From assembly GCA_001799285.1 (NCBI GenBank), contig MGTD01000011.1:809-64808 (forward strand): DNA of 64,000 bases. The letters run 5' to 3'. The DNA comes from Deltaproteobacteria bacterium RIFOXYD12_FULL_56_24. Lineage in GTDB: Bacteria > Desulfobacterota > Desulfobulbia > Desulfobulbales > Desulfurivibrionaceae. Positions 21,651 through 63,937 of the stretch are shown piece by piece. The notes beneath the pieces were generated by a model that was given only the letters and a program-made list of their open reading frames with translations, was not told the DNA's origin and made no database searches. Both the position numbers and the translations under genes were made by a program. Numbering within the stretch: position 1 is the stretch's first letter; each line of letters starts with the position of its first letter.

Positions 21651-21760
21651 AAAAAGCGGCCGCAGGGTGCCGCAGATGCGCGAAAGAGGCCTGTCCGCAA
21701 TACATTGGTATGCGGGCAGGCCGATGACAAAGCAGATGTGGTGCCCTGCGACCGCTTTTT
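21651..21760 (+). repeat. Structured palindromic element, copy 2 (short form)
   Basis: The arms are AAAAAGCGGCCGCAGGG (21651 on) and CCCTGCGACCGCTTTTT (to 21760). The stem continues with TGCCGCA against TGTGGTGCC through three G.U pairs on the plus strand. The inner hairpin is GGCCTG-t-CCGC..ATAC-attg-GTAT..GCGG-g-CAGGCC, followed by the family motif GATGACAAAGCAGATG. It lies between moxR and the DUF58 gene, so it must be transcribed as part of that operon, in antisense. The moxR stop codon overlaps its right end. Confidence 0.88.
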
Positions 21761-24748: not shown

Positions 24749-24884
24749 GTAAACGTTCACCGGGCACCTCATCTGCTTTGTCAGCGGCCTGCTCATGTGC
24801 GACTTGCACACTTCGCAGGCCGCTTTGTCGGACACTTCTGCCGACAATTGACACGCGCATCTGAGGCACCCGGTAAACGTTTAC
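24749..24884 (-). repeat. Structured palindromic element, copy 3
   Basis: The end stem GTAAACGTTCACCGGG pairs with CCCGGTAAACGTTTAC at 15 of 16 positions. Inside are two hairpins: AGCGGCCTGC with GCAGGCCGCT (inner GTGC/GCAC), and TTGTCGG with CCGACAA. Together they make a three-way-junction layout. Departures from Watson-Crick pairing are G.U on the minus strand. Here the CGTCGGC-type hairpin sits on the other side of the main hairpin compared with copies 1, 8 and 9. Confidence 0.88.
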
Positions 24885-24984
24885 AGTCCGGTGAAATTTG
24901 CACGTTCAACGATACTGGTGAACGATTACGATAACAAAGCAGCTGAGGCGCTGCCGGACCGTTACCAAGATCGGAGCAAAATAA

Positions 24985-37345: not shown

Positions 37346-38421
37346 TGGCTACTGTGACAGAGGGTGGAAATACGGCGGGGCGATTGAGCGAAAACGAAAT
37401 CAGGCCGGCGGAATTGCTTGCCGGGCAGGAGGCCGCTTTTGCCCGCGATGTGGCCCGCTTGCAGCATCGGTTTGCCGAGTTTGTGACGGTCTCCTGCCCG
37501 GCCTGTGGTGCTGCCGGGAGCGAGCAGGCTTTCGAGAAATACGGTTTTTCCTTCAAATCCTGCAATGGCTGTAAGACCCTCTATATGTCGCCTCGCCCGT
37601 CGGAAGAGGTGATGGCCGACTATTACCGCAATTCCGAAAACTATGCCTATTGGGCCGAGCATATTTTCCCAGCCTCGGAGTCCGCCCGCCGGGAGAAGAT
37701 CCACAAACCCTGGCTGGCCAGGGTGTTGGCTTATTGTGATCGCTTTCAGGTTGGGCGAGGTACCTTGCTCGAAATCGGCCCCGGTTTTGGCACCTTTTCT
37801 TCGCTGGCTATTGAGCAGCGGGCCTTTGCGCGGGTGATGGCGGTTGAGCCCACACCCGAACTGGCCGAGGCTTGCCGTCGGCGCGGGGTGGTGGTGTTTG
37901 AAAAAAGGGTGGAAGACCTTGCGGAAGGGGAGATCGCCGAGGCGGATGTGGTGGCCGCCTTTGAAGTGATCGAGCATCTTTTCGAGCCATCGCGACTGCT
38001 TACCGGTATCTCCCGGGTGCTGCGACCAGGAGGATTGCTGGTCCTCTCCTGCCCCAATGGTCAAGGGTTTGATGTCGCTGTCCTGGGGCCGGGCTCCAAG
38101 GCGGTGGATACGGAACATGTCAACCTGTTCAACCCGACTTCGCTCAGCCTTTTGGTGCGCACCTGCGGGTTTGAAGTTTTGGAAGTGAGCACCCCCGGAA
38201 GACTCGATGCCGAGTTTGTCCACGATGTCATCGTCCGGGGTGAATACGATGTGACCGGGCAACCGTTTTTGCGGCGGGTTCTGCTCGATGAGTGGGAGCG
38301 GCTGGGGAGTGATTTTCAGCAATTTCTGGCGGATCATCAGCTGTCTTCCCACCTGTGGCTGGTGGCCAGGAAGCCCGCTGAAGGTAACCGATCACGGGGC
38401 AAATTCACAAAGGTCAAATAA
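37345..38421 (+). CDS. SAM methyltransferase with N-terminal zinc-ribbon
   Basis: Four cysteines (SCPACGA near residue 50 and KSCNGCKTLYMSPRP near 70) form a zinc ribbon typical of sugar- and lipopolysaccharide-locus methyltransferases. The SAM fold follows: LLEIGPGFGTFSSLA, MAVEPTPELAEACRR, VVAAFEVIEHLFEP and LRPGGLLVLSCPN. The target is probably a glycan hydroxyl or amidino group. The ATG overlaps the preceding stop (TAATG). The last dozen codons (GNRSRGKFTKVK) are encoded by structured element copy 4, so the original C-terminus was probably replaced. Confidence 0.88.
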   Translation: MATVTEGGNTAGRLSENEIRPAELLAGQEAAFARDVARLQHRFAEFVTVSCPACGAAGSEQAFEKYGFSFKSCNGCKTLYMSPRPSEEVMADYYRNSENYAYWAEHIFPASESARREKIHKPWLARVLAYCDRFQVGRGTLLEIGPGFGTFSSLAIEQRAFARVMAVEPTPELAEACRRRGVVVFEKRVEDLAEGEIAEADVVAAFEVIEHLFEPSRLLTGISRVLRPGGLLVLSCPNGQGFDVAVLGPGSKAVDTEHVNLFNPTSLSLLVRTCGFEVLEVSTPGRLDAEFVHDVIVRGEYDVTGQPFLRRVLLDEWERLGSDFQQFLADHQLSSHLWLVARKPAEGNRSRGKFTKVK

Positions 38422-38537
38422 CCACGAAACAAGCGACCACAGGGTGCCGCAGGTTGCGGCAAGCGGGACGGCGATGCGTACTTTTGTACATGAGCCGGGC
38501 CGATCGCTGCAAGATGTGGTGCCCTGTGATCGCTTAC
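38384..38537 (+). repeat. Structured palindromic element, copy 4
   Basis: It starts GTAACCGATCACGGGG and ends CCCTGTGATCGCTTAC, which are complementary except for a few positions. A second left arm, AAGCGACCACAGGG, begins at 38431. The inner hairpin is GGCGAT..GTAC-tttt-GTAC..ATCGC. The ACCC/GGGT module present in copies 1, 5 and 8 is missing here. The first 38 bases are coding (end of the methyltransferase). Confidence 0.88.
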
Positions 38538-48774: not shown

Positions 48775-48982
48775 GTAACCGATCACGGGGTAAACCCACA
48801 AAGGTCAAATAACCACGGAATCACCCTTCGGGTATAAGTTTCGTTTTGCGCAGACAAGCTGCTCAACTCAGCTAAAAGCGGTCACAGGGTGCCGCAGGTT
48901 GCGACAAGCGGGTTGGCGATGCGTACTTTTGTACGTGAGCCGGACCGATCGCCGCAAGATGTGGTGCCCTGTGATCGCTTAC
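48775..48982 (+). repeat. Structured palindromic element, copy 5 (long form)
   Basis: Ends GTAACCGATCACGGGG and CCCTGTGATCGCTTAC. A left extension holds ACCC-ttc-GGGT and AGCTG/CAGCT hairpins, then a second left arm AAGCGGTCACAGGGTGCCGCAG that pairs with the right end. All four early stem imperfections are G.U on the plus strand. The inner hairpin is GGCGAT..GTAC-tttt-GTAC..GATCGCC. It lies in the leader region of nadA. Confidence 0.88.
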
Positions 48983-50109: not shown

Positions 50110-51258
50110 ATGCAAGAAATCTACTTTGACAACAATGCCTCCACCCCTTTGGCCCCAACGGTGCGGGAGGCCATGTCCCCCTATCTGGCCGAATGGTTCG
50201 GCAATCCGGGCAGTTCCCACCATTTCGGCGAGGCTGCCCGGCGAGGTCTGGAGCTGGCCAGGGAGCAGGTGGCCGGGCTGCTTGGCTGCCATCCGGCTCG
50301 ACTGGTCTTAAACAGCGGCGGCACCGAAGGCAACAACACCGCCATCTTCAGCGCGGTCTGGGCCAATCCCGCGAAAAAGCACATTATCTCGTCGCAGGTC
50401 GAGCACGGCTCGGTGCTGGCGCCACTCGAGTTTCTTGCCGGTCAGGGCTATGAAGTGGAGCTGCTGGGGGTGGACGAAAACGGCGGTCTTGATCTGGAGG
50501 CGCTCAAAAGGGCGATCCGGCCGGACACCGCTCTGGTCTCCCTGATGGGAGCGAACAACGAAACCGGGGTGATCTGGCCGGTTGGCCAGATTGGTGGTAT
50601 CTGCCGGGAGCGGGGGGTGTTGTTTCACTGCGACGCCATCCAGCTGGCCGGCAAGGCACCCATCGCGGCGGAAGCGCTGGAGGTGGATTATCTCACCATC
50701 GCCGGCCATAAACTGCATGGTCCCAAAGGGGCCGGGGCGCTCTATGTCCGTCGCACCGCGCCGTTTACCCCGCTGATCATGGGCTCCGGCCAGGAAAACG
50801 GTCGGCGGGCCGGCACCGAAAACGTCCCCGGCCTCGTCGGCCTCGGGCAGGCCTGCGCGCTGGCCATGGGGGTGGACGAGGCGGCGCATCAGCGGCTGGC
50901 CGCCCTGCGGGATTGTTTGGAGGCCGGGATTATCGCCGTGATCCCCGAGGTGCGAATCAATGGCGCAGCTTCGCCCAGGCTGGTCAACACCACCAACGTC
51001 AGTTTTCGGCATGCGGCCTCGGCCGGACTTATCCAGGATCTCGACGCGGGCGGTATCGCCGTTTCCGCCCATGCCGCCTGTGAGAGCGGCGACCTGGATC
51101 CCTCGCATGTGTTGCGGGCCATGCGGGTGGAGGAATCCTTCCTGCACGGAACCCTGCGCATCAGTCTGAGCCGTTACAATACCGAGGCAGAGGTCGCGTC
51201 CTTGTTGGCCTTTTTGCCGGAAGCAGTAGCCAAATCCAGACAGGGCTTCGCCATGTAA
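50110..51258 (+). CDS. nifS: Cysteine desulfurase, NifS/IscS family
   Basis: Takes sulfur from cysteine for Fe-S assembly. EIYFDNNASTPLAPTVREAM opens the fold, then NPGSSHHFGEAARRG, LNSGGTEGNNTAIFS, PLP lysine in TIAGHKLHGPKGAGALYV, GQENGRRAGTENV and the catalytic Cys in HAACESGDLDPSHVL. Adjacent to nadA, it probably matures the NadA cluster. The stop TAA is made by the first bases of structured element copy 6. Confidence 0.95.
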   Translation: MQEIYFDNNASTPLAPTVREAMSPYLAEWFGNPGSSHHFGEAARRGLELAREQVAGLLGCHPARLVLNSGGTEGNNTAIFSAVWANPAKKHIISSQVEHGSVLAPLEFLAGQGYEVELLGVDENGGLDLEALKRAIRPDTALVSLMGANNETGVIWPVGQIGGICRERGVLFHCDAIQLAGKAPIAAEALEVDYLTIAGHKLHGPKGAGALYVRRTAPFTPLIMGSGQENGRRAGTENVPGLVGLGQACALAMGVDEAAHQRLAALRDCLEAGIIAVIPEVRINGAASPRLVNTTNVSFRHAASAGLIQDLDAGGIAVSAHAACESGDLDPSHVLRAMRVEESFLHGTLRISLSRYNTEAEVASLLAFLPEAVAKSRQGFAM

Positions 51259-51360
51259 ACGTTCAGCAGCACAGCATCTGCTTTGTCATCGGCCTGCTCA
51301 TGTGCAAAAGCACACTTCGCAGACCTCTTTCGCGCATCTGCGGCACGGCTGAACGTTTAT
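51255..51360 (-). repeat. Structured palindromic element, copy 6 (shortest form)
   Basis: Ends GTAAACGTTCAG and CTGAACGTTTAT (12 pairs, one G.U). The inner hairpin is GGCCTGC..ATGTGC-aaaa-GCACAC..GCAGACC, and CAGCATCTGCTTTGTCATC follows the family consensus in reverse. Its first four bases contain the nifS stop codon. Confidence 0.88.
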
Positions 51361-53284: not shown

Positions 53285-53309
53285 TAGCTTGTCGGTAAAT
53301 AACTTTTCA

Positions 53310-53467
53310 GTAACTGATCACAAGGTAGGCGACCAAGTGCAGCGCCGTATCCCCAACTGTAAGCGATTGCAGGGTGCGGCAGATGCGCGACAGAGGCCTG
53401 AGAGCTATACATATGGTATGCGAACAGGCCGATAACAAAGCAGATGTCGTGCCCTGTGATCGCTTAC
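53310..53467 (+). repeat. Structured palindromic element, copy 7
   Basis: The core is 53359-53467: GTAAGCGATTGCAGGGTGCGGCA pairs with TGTCGTGCCCTGTGATCGCTTAC over 23 positions, and all five departures are G.U on the plus strand. The inner hairpin is GGCCTG..ATAC-atatg-GTAT..CAGGCC. A decayed left extension starting GTAACTGATCACAAGG at 53310 mirrors the right end, as in copies 4 and 5. The downstream bioH-like frame runs into its right half. Confidence 0.88.
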
Positions 53468-54123
53468 ACTTTTCAGGGCTCGCACCGCTGCCGTACCCCG
53501 CGATCATTTTTCTACCCGGCTGGGGCTTTTCCGGCCAGGTACTCGATTTGGCAGAAAAGCGCTACCCCTGGGCAAGCCCGGCGGCGTTGCTGGATCCGGT
53601 CACCGCTCAGGCGGAGATTCTGGCTTTTCTGGCCGAACGCCAGCTTGCTGCCGTCCAGCTGGTCGGCTGGTCCATGGGCGCTTACCTGGCTTATGATTTT
53701 ACCTGTGCCTTTCCCGAAAAGGTGACGGGTCTGACCCTGCTCGGTATGCGGGGTTCCTGGCCGTCTGCGGAGATCGAGGCCATCCGTCGGGGCCTTGCAA
53801 CCGACCCCGTGGCGTTTATGCGGGATTTTTACCGGAAAAGCCTGCTGGGCTATAAAGAAGAAGCCCGGCGGTTTGTGGCCGACCAGCAGGAGGCGCTGCT
53901 GGCATCTCTGGACTTGCGGATTCTTGGCCGGGGTCTCGATTATCTGGGCCAATGGCGTTTGTCGGAACGCGGGGTGCAATGCCCGGTTTTCTGTTGGCAT
54001 GGGCGGCGGGATATCATCGCGCCGGTGGCGGAGCAGGCCGTGATCCCCGGAGTCCGGGGCATCATCATCGAGCATGGCGGGCATGCCCTTTTTTTCGATC
54101 GGGAGTTTGCCGCAGGTGACTGA
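53449..54123 (+). CDS. bioH: Alpha/beta hydrolase, BioH-like pimeloyl-ACP methyl ester esterase
   Basis: The hydrolase core reads AIIFLPGWGFSGQVLDLAEK, the nucleophile Ser in VQLVGWSMGAYLAYDF, the acid in FCWHGRRDIIAP and the His in IIEHGGHALFFDRE. Position before bioC and bioD makes it the esterase that removes the BioC methyl group. The start is uncertain: GTG at 53449 gives 224 residues; in-frame ATGs at 53413 and 53374 lie deeper in structured element copy 7. None has a clear ribosome site. Either way the first codons come from the repeat. Confidence 0.85.
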   Translation: MPCDRLHFSGLAPLPYPAIIFLPGWGFSGQVLDLAEKRYPWASPAALLDPVTAQAEILAFLAERQLAAVQLVGWSMGAYLAYDFTCAFPEKVTGLTLLGMRGSWPSAEIEAIRRGLATDPVAFMRDFYRKSLLGYKEEARRFVADQQEALLASLDLRILGRGLDYLGQWRLSERGVQCPVFCWHGRRDIIAPVAEQAVIPGVRGIIIEHGGHALFFDREFAAGD

Positions 54124-55606: not shown

Positions 55607-55840
55607 GTAAGCGATCACAGGGCACCACATGTTGTCGGCACTTCTGCCGACGATTGACAGCGGCGATCGGTCCGGCTCACGTACAAAAGTACGCGTCGCC
55701 AGCCCGCTTGCCGCAACCTGCGGCACCCTGTGGCCGCTTTTAGCTGAGTTGAGCAGCTTGTCTGCTCAAAACGAAACTTATACCCGAAGGGTGATTCCGT
55801 GGTTATTTGACCTTTGTGGGCTTATCCCGTGGTTGGTTAC
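55607..55840 (-). repeat. Structured palindromic element, copy 8 (long form)
   Basis: Nearly identical in plan to copy 1: left GTAAGCGATCACAGGGCACC, hairpin GTCGGC-acttct-GCCGAC, hairpin GGCGATCGG..GTAC-aaaa-GTAC..GTCGCC, right core arm GGTGCCGCAGG-type in reverse, then AGCTG/CAGCT and ACCC-gaa-GGGT hairpins and the end CCCGTGGTTGGTTAC. Oriented minus. It fills the gap between bioD (+) and the DUF2892 gene (-), whose stop codon is the next base. Confidence 0.9.
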
Positions 55841-58488: not shown

Positions 58489-58617
58489 GTAGCCGTTTAG
58501 CAGTGCCGCAGATGCGCGGAAGAGGTCGGTGAAGTGTGCTGTTGCACATGAGCCGGCCGATGACTGTCAATCATCGGCGGCAGCGCCGATAACGCAGATG
58601 TACTGCTGGATGGCTAC
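58489..58617 (+). repeat. Structured palindromic element, copy 9
   Basis: Ends GTAGCCGTTTAGCAGT and ACTGCTGGATGGCTAC: 16 pairs, all three departures G.U on the plus strand. The inner hairpins are GGTCGG..GTGTGC-tgtt-GCACAT..CCGGCC and ATCGGC-ggcagc-GCCGAT, giving a three-way-junction plan. The dinG stop codon (TAG, minus strand) lies in its right end. It sits between dinG and ispB. Confidence 0.88.
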
Positions 58618-60608
58618 GTTTCCTCCGTAAAAAAATTCCGCACAGCGCTAATCTCGCGGCAGATCTGGCTTGGGGGCAGGCTTTTCAGGAAGAGTTTGCC
58701 GTACTGCTTGCTGAAGAGGCGGACATCGCAGATCGCCAGAACCCCACGGTCGGTGGCGCTGCGCATCAACCGGCCTACGCCCTGACGCAGGGTCAGGATG
58801 GCGCGGGGGATCTGGAAATCGTAAAAGGGGTTGCCGCCTTCGCTTTTGATCCGTTCCATGCGGGCCATAATAACAGGGTCCGAGGGGACTTCAAACGGAA
58901 GTTTGTCGATGATCACGCAACTCAGCGATTCGCCCACCACATCCACCCCCTCCCAGAAGCTGGCCACCGCCAGGAGGACGGAATGGGTCTGCTCCCGGAA
59001 CTGCTCCAGCAGCCTGGCCTTGGGAGCCTCCCCTTGCAGCAGCAGCGGAAAGGGCAGCCGGCCCAGAAGAAACTCGTGGGCGGCGCGCATGGCGCTGAGG
59101 CTGGTGAAAAGCAGCAGGGTCCGGCCATTGGCGGCCATGATCAGCTCCTGCATCAGCTGCTGGCAGGCGCCCGGAAACTCGCGGGCCGCCGGCTCGGGAA
59201 ATCCCTTGCCCGGCACGAAGAGCAGGGTGCGCTTTTCGTAAGCAAAGGGGGTGGCCAGGGTAAGGGTCGGGGTGTCTTCGGGCAGGCCAAGGCGGCGGGA
59301 AAAATAGGTGAAGTTGTTGTCGGTGGTCAGGGTGGCTGAGGTGAAGATCACGTTTCGGCTCTGGTCGTAAAGAAAGTCCTGCAGTTCGTCGGCAATGTCG
59401 ATGGGCGAGGCGGAGAGGGCCACGGTTTTTTCCCTTCGTTCATACCAGTAAACCGAGGAGGAGTCCCGCGCCTCGGTGATGGTGGTGAAGGCGGCCAGCA
59501 GCTCTTCCACCCGCCGCTGCATGCCCAGCCATGATTCCCCGCCCGTGGCCGCCTTGGCCAGTTGATTGGACAATCCCTTGATCTGGTCGGCCATGCGCTG
59601 CCGCTCTTCTTCCCAGCCCGGGAACCGCTCGATGAACTGGAGCAGGGAAAAACGGCCCCGCTCCCGGGGGAAGAGCTCGGCAAAAAGATCGATCTGCTTG
59701 GCCAGCGCCCTGGCGGTCTGTACCACCCCTTCCCTGGCGCGGCCCACCAGATCGGCCTGGGCCGCGGTCTCCAGATCTTTCACCAGATCGATCACCTGAT
59801 AATGGCTGAAGGAGGTGCCGAAGTAGCGGGTCGCCACCCCTTCCAGATGATGGGCCTCGTCGAAAATCACCGATTCGTAGCGGGGCAGAACCTCGGCATG
59901 CCCGAAACGGCGCAGGGCCAGGTCGGAAAAGAAGAGGTGATGGTTGACCACCAGCAGCTGGGCCTGGCCCGCTTTTTTGCGCAGTGTAGTTATAAAGCAG
60001 GCGGAGCCATCCGGGCAGTTGGAGCCCAGACACTGACTGGCCGAGGCGGTGATTGCCTGCCAGAGCGGGGCATTGTCCGCCAGCCAGGCCAGTTCGCTCC
60101 GGTCGCCGGTCTCGGTTTCCTCAAGCCAGTCGGCGACCCTTTGGCTGTCGCGGTCGTCGGCCAGGAGATGGCGCTGGGGTGAGGCAAGGAACTGCTGCCA
60201 GCGGTAGAGGCAGAGGTAGTTCTGTCTGCCTTTGATGCAGAGGGCGTTGAGCCTCGGGGCCAGGTGTTTCTTGATGAAGGGGATTTCCTTGGTGAGAATC
60301 TGGTCTTGCAGGTTCAAGGTATTGGTGGAAACCACCACCTTTTGGCCGCTGAGGATGGCCGGAACCAGATAGGCCATGGTCTTGCCGGTGCCGGTGCCCG
60401 CCTCAACCGCCAGCATTCCTGCCTGGCCGGCCCGCTCCTCTTCCGTCGGCTCCAGGGTGGCGGCGATGGCTTCGGCCATGCGCAGCTGGCCGGGTCGGGA
60501 TTCGTAGCCGGGCAGTTTCCGGGCCAGGATACCGCCTTGGGCAAAGATGTCGGCCATGGCCTCAGGCAGAGAAGTGGACATAGGGCTCTGCTTAGCTTGT
60601 GGATTCAA
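58614..60608 (-). CDS. dinG: DinG-family ATP-dependent DNA helicase
   Basis: An XPD-like superfamily 2 helicase. Walker A is VEAGTGTGKTMAYLVPA near residue 70, then VVVSTNTLNLQDQIL, an Fe-S cysteine set (NALCIKGRQNYLCLYRW, CLGSNCPDGSACF), VIFDEAHHLEGVATRY, ALSASPIDIADELQDF-type motif region, VIFTSATLTTDNNF, and the C-terminal motifs LLLFTSLSAM, VLLAVASFWEGVDV and ILTLRQGVGRLMRSATDRG. It probably unwinds D-loops, R-loops or forked DNA. Start 60608 or the ATG at 60581. Confidence 0.93.
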   Translation of the reverse strand: MNPQAKQSPMSTSLPEAMADIFAQGGILARKLPGYESRPGQLRMAEAIAATLEPTEEERAGQAGMLAVEAGTGTGKTMAYLVPAILSGQKVVVSTNTLNLQDQILTKEIPFIKKHLAPRLNALCIKGRQNYLCLYRWQQFLASPQRHLLADDRDSQRVADWLEETETGDRSELAWLADNAPLWQAITASASQCLGSNCPDGSACFITTLRKKAGQAQLLVVNHHLFFSDLALRRFGHAEVLPRYESVIFDEAHHLEGVATRYFGTSFSHYQVIDLVKDLETAAQADLVGRAREGVVQTARALAKQIDLFAELFPRERGRFSLLQFIERFPGWEEERQRMADQIKGLSNQLAKAATGGESWLGMQRRVEELLAAFTTITEARDSSSVYWYERREKTVALSASPIDIADELQDFLYDQSRNVIFTSATLTTDNNFTYFSRRLGLPEDTPTLTLATPFAYEKRTLLFVPGKGFPEPAAREFPGACQQLMQELIMAANGRTLLLFTSLSAMRAAHEFLLGRLPFPLLLQGEAPKARLLEQFREQTHSVLLAVASFWEGVDVVGESLSCVIIDKLPFEVPSDPVIMARMERIKSEGGNPFYDFQIPRAILTLRQGVGRLMRSATDRGVLAICDVRLFSKQYGKLFLKSLPPSQICREISAVRNFFTEET

Positions 60609-63468: not shown

Positions 63469-63628
63469 GTAACTATCCAGCAGCACCGCATCTGCGTTGT
63501 TGCACCCAGAGGGTATAAGTTTCGTTTGGGCAGGCAAGCTGCCCAACTCAGCTATATCAGCCTGCTTATGGGCGCCAGCACACTTCGCAGGCTTCTGCCT
63601 AGCAGCTACGGCACTGCTGGATAGTTAC
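63469..63628 (-). repeat. Structured palindromic element, copy 10 (internal module form)
   Basis: Ends GTAACTATCCAGCAG and CTGCTGGATAGTTAC are perfectly complementary over 15 bases. Further in, CACCGCA and TACGGCA pair with G.U on the minus strand. The ACCC..GGGT/AGCTG module that flanks the core in copies 1, 5 and 8 is here inside it (GTTGCACCCAGAGGGTATAAG, GGCAAGCTGCCCAACTCAGC). The main hairpin is AGCCTGC..GCAGGCT. Confidence 0.88.
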
Positions 63629-63937
63629 GGGTTGGGTTGTTTTTGTTCGTTTCCGGCCTTGAGCTGGATAGTTATGTTTTTTGTTGGCTGTCATGGCATG
63701 ATTATTTTCATGGCCTCTTTCGTTTCCGTGCGGGGCAATCCTGCCGGTTACAGGGGTACTATGGTGCAAAACCGCGATTTCTTCAAGCATATTTCCGGCC
63801 TGGTCGAGCCCTGCTGATATCGGCTTGACTTCACGGAGAGGGGTGCTTATGTTGGCACACTCAAACCATTATTTTTCCCGGCGCCTTTTTTCCGGCAAGG
63901 GTGCTTTGCCGATAACATACTAACCTGGAGGCATGTT

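Follow-up and report, generated by a model that had tools for sequence, protein, structure and literature searches.

The hairpin at 53359..53467 (plus strand) in a 64,000-nucleotide stretch of Deltaproteobacteria bacterium RIFOXYD12_FULL_56_24 (hereafter the window) raises the question of whether stem imperfections that are G.U on one strand testify to selection as RNA or are traits inherited within a repeat family. The initial annotation had favoured the former, on the argument that random decay of a DNA palindrome would give no strand bias. Taken as a whole, the analysis presented here probably identifies a non-autonomous MITE of IS66 type (ISBst12 group), with the hairpin as its right half, and the G.U-type imperfections of the hairpin appear to be mostly inherited family traits, not proof of per-copy selection as RNA.

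Architecture and dispersal of the element

Copy 7 (53310-53467) comprises a left terminal repeat (GTAACTGATCAC...) with spacer at 53310..53358 (+), the distance from left end to hairpin in the family normally being 44-48 bp, and the hairpin half, which matches the covariance model with 106.3 bits. It is framed by the target-site duplication (TSD) ACTTTTCA, whose left copy (53302..53309) is repeated perfectly, in 8/8 positions, by the right copy (53468..53475). The outer arms represent two copies of the element end, an internal one and the right one (GTAAGCGATYRCAGG...ATCGCTTAC), and the 23-position outer stem holds 18 Watson-Crick pairs, five G.T (G.U) and no A.C on the plus strand; this recount agrees exactly with the earlier observation that all five departures are G.U on that strand.

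The family as a whole is built from a left terminal repeat beginning GTAA, a spacer of ~46 bp, the hairpin (~110 bp) as right half and a right end terminating in TTAC, amounting to dispersed elements of ~150-230 bp without a long ORF. Each element carries three related end copies (left end, internal inverted copy and right end), of which the internal and right copies pair to form the hairpin. With the left end placed ~46 bp (44-48) before the hairpin and the right end at the last hairpin base, an 8-bp TSD with at most one mismatch was found for 122/263 copies versus 4/263 in a shifted control, and many older copies are without a recognisable left end or TSD. Polarity of the element, which the initial annotation had derived from the strand bias, is borne out on other grounds: its ends are not alike, the orientation is set by internal loops that are conserved, and the interior is readable in one direction, with covariance-model scores on the forward and reverse strands of, e.g., 116.7 vs 34.3 bits.

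At least 150 copies occur in the source genome (G000, 3.04 Mb), and many more are spread across the order Desulfobulbales, the matches including Desulfobulbaceae and Desulfurivibrio MAGs; viral contigs, when scanned for the exact pattern, gave no match. A single-contig genome of the same family (G019) contains at least 150 scored matches whose interior deviates somewhat (CAGGTTGCGGCAAGCGGG type). Empty sites were seen in congeners for several window copies; post-insertion change at shared orthologous sites was also sought, and the insertions examined were lineage-specific. Short, non-coding and dispersed, bounded by terminal inverted repeats and TSDs, and found as occupied versus empty sites, the repeat has the features of a MITE. 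attC sites, suggested by the appearance of the hairpins, were dropped as a candidate because the elements are dispersed and TSD-flanked.

Other copies in the window illustrate the range of preservation. Full elements lie at 24749..24929 (minus strand; left end GTAATCGTTCACC, perfect TSD TTGTTATC, inner hairpin module), at 38384..38537 (plus; left end GTAACCGATCACGG, perfect TSD CGCTGAAG) and at 63469..63675 (minus; GTAACTATCC subfamily, 8-bp duplication with one mismatch, empty site in seven congeners). The CAGGG subfamily is represented by a hairpin at 48874..48982 (plus), recognised by its covariance-model match and with no TSD found, and by one at 55607..55741 (minus), whose ends were set by eye and which has an inner module and an empty site in congeners. 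A hairpin copy at 51255..51360 (minus), supported by the covariance model and by congener comparison, likewise has an empty site in congeners, as does the copy at 58489..58620 (plus; GTAGCC...GGCTAC), which contains an inner module and is flanked by GTTTCCTCC repeats. The hairpin copy at 21653..21758 (plus), identified by sequence, covariance model and arm count, has a degraded left end and terminator-like stem ends AAAAAGCGG/CCGCTTTTT; such AAAAA...TTTTT ends, present at 21651-21760 and in L028, look like bidirectional intrinsic terminators. Extra hairpin modules inside the main hairpin (e.g., TGTCAATCGTCGGCAGAAGTGTCCGACAA and a GCTGAGTTGGGCAGCTTGCC... module) are common to several subfamilies and are located in the copies at 24749-24929, 55607-55741, 58489-58620 and 63469-63675 as well as in L012, L013 and L024.

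Two further forms depart from the standard layout. A 51-bp miniature (L177:1849-1899) is reduced to the outer stem, closed by a short loop, with a left end before it, and a hairpin-only copy of 106 bp (L029:189-294) stands between the two halves of an 8-bp duplication, GTTTACTT, which suggests that the internal end is able to serve as a transposon end too.

Relation to IS66-type transposases

The GTAA ends and 8-bp duplications make IS66 the candidate mobiliser. Two IS66 elements were found in the same order, a 1,729-bp single-ORF element (L327) with ends GTAACTATCCAGCT and TSD GAATATTT, and a second (L329) with ends GTAACTACTCAGCC and TSD TAATACAG, and the proteins of both match IS66 transposase models in Pfam and NCBIfam. 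In the ISBst12 group, ISDge4 has the terminal inverted repeat GTAACTGCTCAGCA and a direct repeat of 8 bp (PMC12898284), and the same 14-mer forms the ends of the MITE copies L032, L251, L303 and L306. In both its ends and its 8-bp TSD, the repeat thus resembles L327, L329 and ISDge4. ISBst12-group elements differ from it in encoding a transposase of ~450-500 aa, whereas the MITE is non-coding and its hairpin half is absent from the L327 ends; no adjoining hairpin of the MITE kind was found there, so that the IS66 relation does not explain the origin of that half.

Neither the source genome nor 17 genomes of the genus yielded an IS66 transposase with the Pfam profile PF03050, and a search of the genus genomes with the L327 protein, run without a positive control, likewise returned none. 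IS elements present in several copies could go unseen in fragmented assemblies, and a cognate transposase in the same genome, though not found, is not required of a MITE. Since the transposase is missing from the genus genomes searched, the identity of the mobiliser stays indirect: judged from the end sequences and TSDs, an ISBst12-group transposase, now absent from these genomes, probably moved the MITEs.

Origin of the paired outer arms

The earlier observation that the outer 12-16 bases vary between copies while both arms are altered together is confirmed. These bases are two subfamily-specific copies of the element end (e.g., GTAACTATCC, GTAAGCGTTCAGC, GTAAGCGGTCAC and GTAACCGTTCAGC). The left end lies outside the hairpin, yet for many copies its type is the same as that of the hairpin ends or similar to it, so that part of the outer-arm covariation reflects the identity of end repeats.

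End identity does not account for all matched changes. In a strict neighbour test, private both-arm changes were complementary in 13 cases vs 1 non-complementary, with a transition:transversion ratio of 6:7, near that of single-arm changes (37:29). Passage through G.U intermediates predicts transitions, and the transversions observed therefore suggest arm-to-arm homogenisation. Both arms have changed in L132 and L122, young copies with perfect TSDs; in L132 they have gone from A-T to G-C, and A is retained in the left end of this copy. In the pooled set under stricter neighbours only two or three both-arm events are left, so that these numbers are small. Template switching between arms can produce multi-base compensatory changes with no need for G.U intermediates (PMC8794818), a form of hairpin maintenance shown for RNA genes and proposed here for a MITE. 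Overall, 22/39 pairs vary on both sides, a signal that a fold, end identity or arm homogenisation could each give; the inner helix, which is not a terminal repeat, covaries as well, and plain terminal-repeat identity does not explain this. On these sequence comparisons, transposon-end identity and arm homogenisation would largely explain the outer-arm covariation.

Strand bias of stem imperfections

G.T and A.C states were compared by neighbour consensus, by disjoint pairs of related copies and by state frequency. The general excess of G.U on the predicted strand, expected from the initial annotation, did not hold up. The outer arms of nine window copies contain 8 G.T, 8 A.C and 3 other mismatches. 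Among 164 copies of the source genome, outer positions 1-14 contain 126 G.T and 83 A.C. Two inherited positions supply 83/126 of the G.T, and two others 47/83 of the A.C, leaving 43 and 36 once these are removed. A tandem U.G/G.U core beside the arm is present in 147/164 and 156/164 of these copies; being fixed in nearly every copy, it stands for few evolutionary events, and it makes up part of the excess originally perceived.

The outcome depends on the recency of the changes. With about 260 copies pooled and stem states taken as rare (at most 3 copies) or common (at least 4), distinct rare states comprise 24 G.T and 24 A.C, compared with 28:12 for common states (Fisher p = 0.08). Some states are shared by descent between classes of copies, so that independent events are few. 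Within the source genome the counts are 17:25 for rare and 21:7 for common states (Fisher p = 0.007), and private changes there number 20 G.T and 17 A.C. Disjoint pairs of related copies gave 154 G.T and 51 A.C, and neighbour consensus, once extended to further species and to looser neighbours, 46 and 23, which ties the no-bias result to recent changes. As we read them, the 154:51 and 46:23 excesses mainly reflect toggling between the same common states; they are nevertheless evidence against a flat null at the level of lineages. Equal numbers of G.U and A.C, named beforehand as the outcome that would speak against a strand bias, were thus found in the outer arms of the window and among rare states, and not in the raw copy-weighted counts.

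Since rare states stand at 24:24, decay of resident copies looks unbiased, and the strand-bias argument fails for them. The states that spread do lean modestly to G.T; this lineage-level lean could go back to a few lucky ancestral states, or to selection acting on a folded plus strand (ssDNA or RNA) while the element propagates.

Gene context and alternative explanations

About 95% of the copies with enough flanking sequence are intergenic, 5/107 lying inside a gene. In gaps between co-directional genes, the plus strand is antisense in 49 cases and sense in 17 (p = 1e-4; home-made gene calls), so that read-through transcripts would mainly carry the strand with A.C pairs; this bias opposes selection on read-through plus-strand RNA, not on a transcript begun inside the element. 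Full-length copies adjoin gene 3' ends with the right end in 42/81 and with the left end in 22/69 (Fisher p = 0.02), and ~30 of them provide, by the TAA within GTAA, the stop codon at which a neighbouring gene ends. In the window, the TAA in the right end of the copy at 51255-51360 does so for the cysteine desulfurase ORF 50110-51258.

Against this background, the idea of a functional RNA (regulatory, 3'-end or small RNA) folding as the plus-strand hairpin, in which G.U pairs are tolerated since pairing is selected in each copy, can draw on tandem G.U and G.A pairs and internal loops conserved in one orientation, on the 22/39 pairs with both-side changes and the covarying inner helix, and on the common states and related-copy contrasts that lean to G.T. 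We nonetheless regard it as improbable, given that the rare states are balanced, that the plus strand is mainly antisense to flanking genes, that both-arm changes are not mainly transitions, and that pairs of related copies differ per site in stems about as much as in loops, or more. In Rfam, the window gave a tRNA and nothing else at gathering score, and L009 gave no match up to E = 10; neither a described RNA family nor an excess of G.U over A.C among independent recent changes was found, and selection as RNA in resident copies, as originally put forward, is not supported. Equally doubtful is the idea that many copies had their outer stem exapted as an intrinsic terminator and that the arms are kept complementary in this way: the AAAAA...TTTTT stems at 21651-21760 and in L028 and the many copies directly at gene stops speak for it, but the majority of copies have TTAC and no T tract at the end, and the surrounding genes in many cases do not converge.

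Recognition of the folded plus strand, as ssDNA or RNA, during propagation would place selection on the transposing lineage instead of on residents, and deserves somewhat more credence, though it too is unlikely. It would accommodate the contrast between common and rare states in the source genome and the finding that, in several families, most copies have kept both the core wobble and the internal loops; on the other hand, independent common states are few and some are shared by descent between classes of copies, the core wobble has been replaced in some copies (L343 and the second copy in L353), and IS66 is a DDE element whose representative L327 is without such a hairpin. Its more specific form, in which an IS66-type transposase recognises the folded plus strand in mobilisation and selection for the fold is confined to the lineage that propagates, is less likely still.

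Under the preferred reading of an IS66-type MITE, an ISBst12-group transposase would move the non-coding element by its GTAA/TTAC ends and make the 8-bp TSD; the concerted outer stem would be the end subfamily to which a copy belongs, with further matched changes arising by arm-to-arm copying through template switching at the quasi-palindrome. The G.U pairs would mostly be ancestral subfamily states passed on by copying, and extrusion of the plus strand may play a part in propagation.

Comparison with other repeats and biological implications

Bacterial MITEs such as ERIC/RU and MITEPsy1 (PMC2759123, PMC3189936) are likewise short, non-coding and repeated, with end repeats. ERIC/RU elements are intergenic, and the Desulfobulbales MITE is like them in general description. 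MITEPsy1 shares the target duplication, but has a 4-bp TSD and few copies, in contrast to the 8-bp TSD and at least 150 copies described here. REP/BIME sequences (PMC3733652) share the dispersed palindromes and high copy number; REPs are 20-40 bp long, unlike the ~110 bp hairpin with its 8-bp TSDs and terminal inverted repeats. The REP/RAYT class, with its 20-40 bp palindrome and GTAG or CGTC tag, was accordingly rejected, the ends here being GTAA.

The repeat reported here is a new IS66-type MITE that carries a polar hairpin and occurs in high copy number across the order Desulfobulbales. For repeats in general, it cautions that RNA-like covariation and G.U bias can stem from end-repeat identity, homogenisation and inheritance, and the comparison of rare with common stem states offers a simple test that tells how resident copies decay apart from how the active lineage evolves. 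If the folded plus strand is indeed recognised in mobilisation, hairpin-assisted MITE spread would be at hand for a DDE transposase. For the Desulfobulbales themselves, insertion beside a gene often means that an element end provides the stop codon of that gene.
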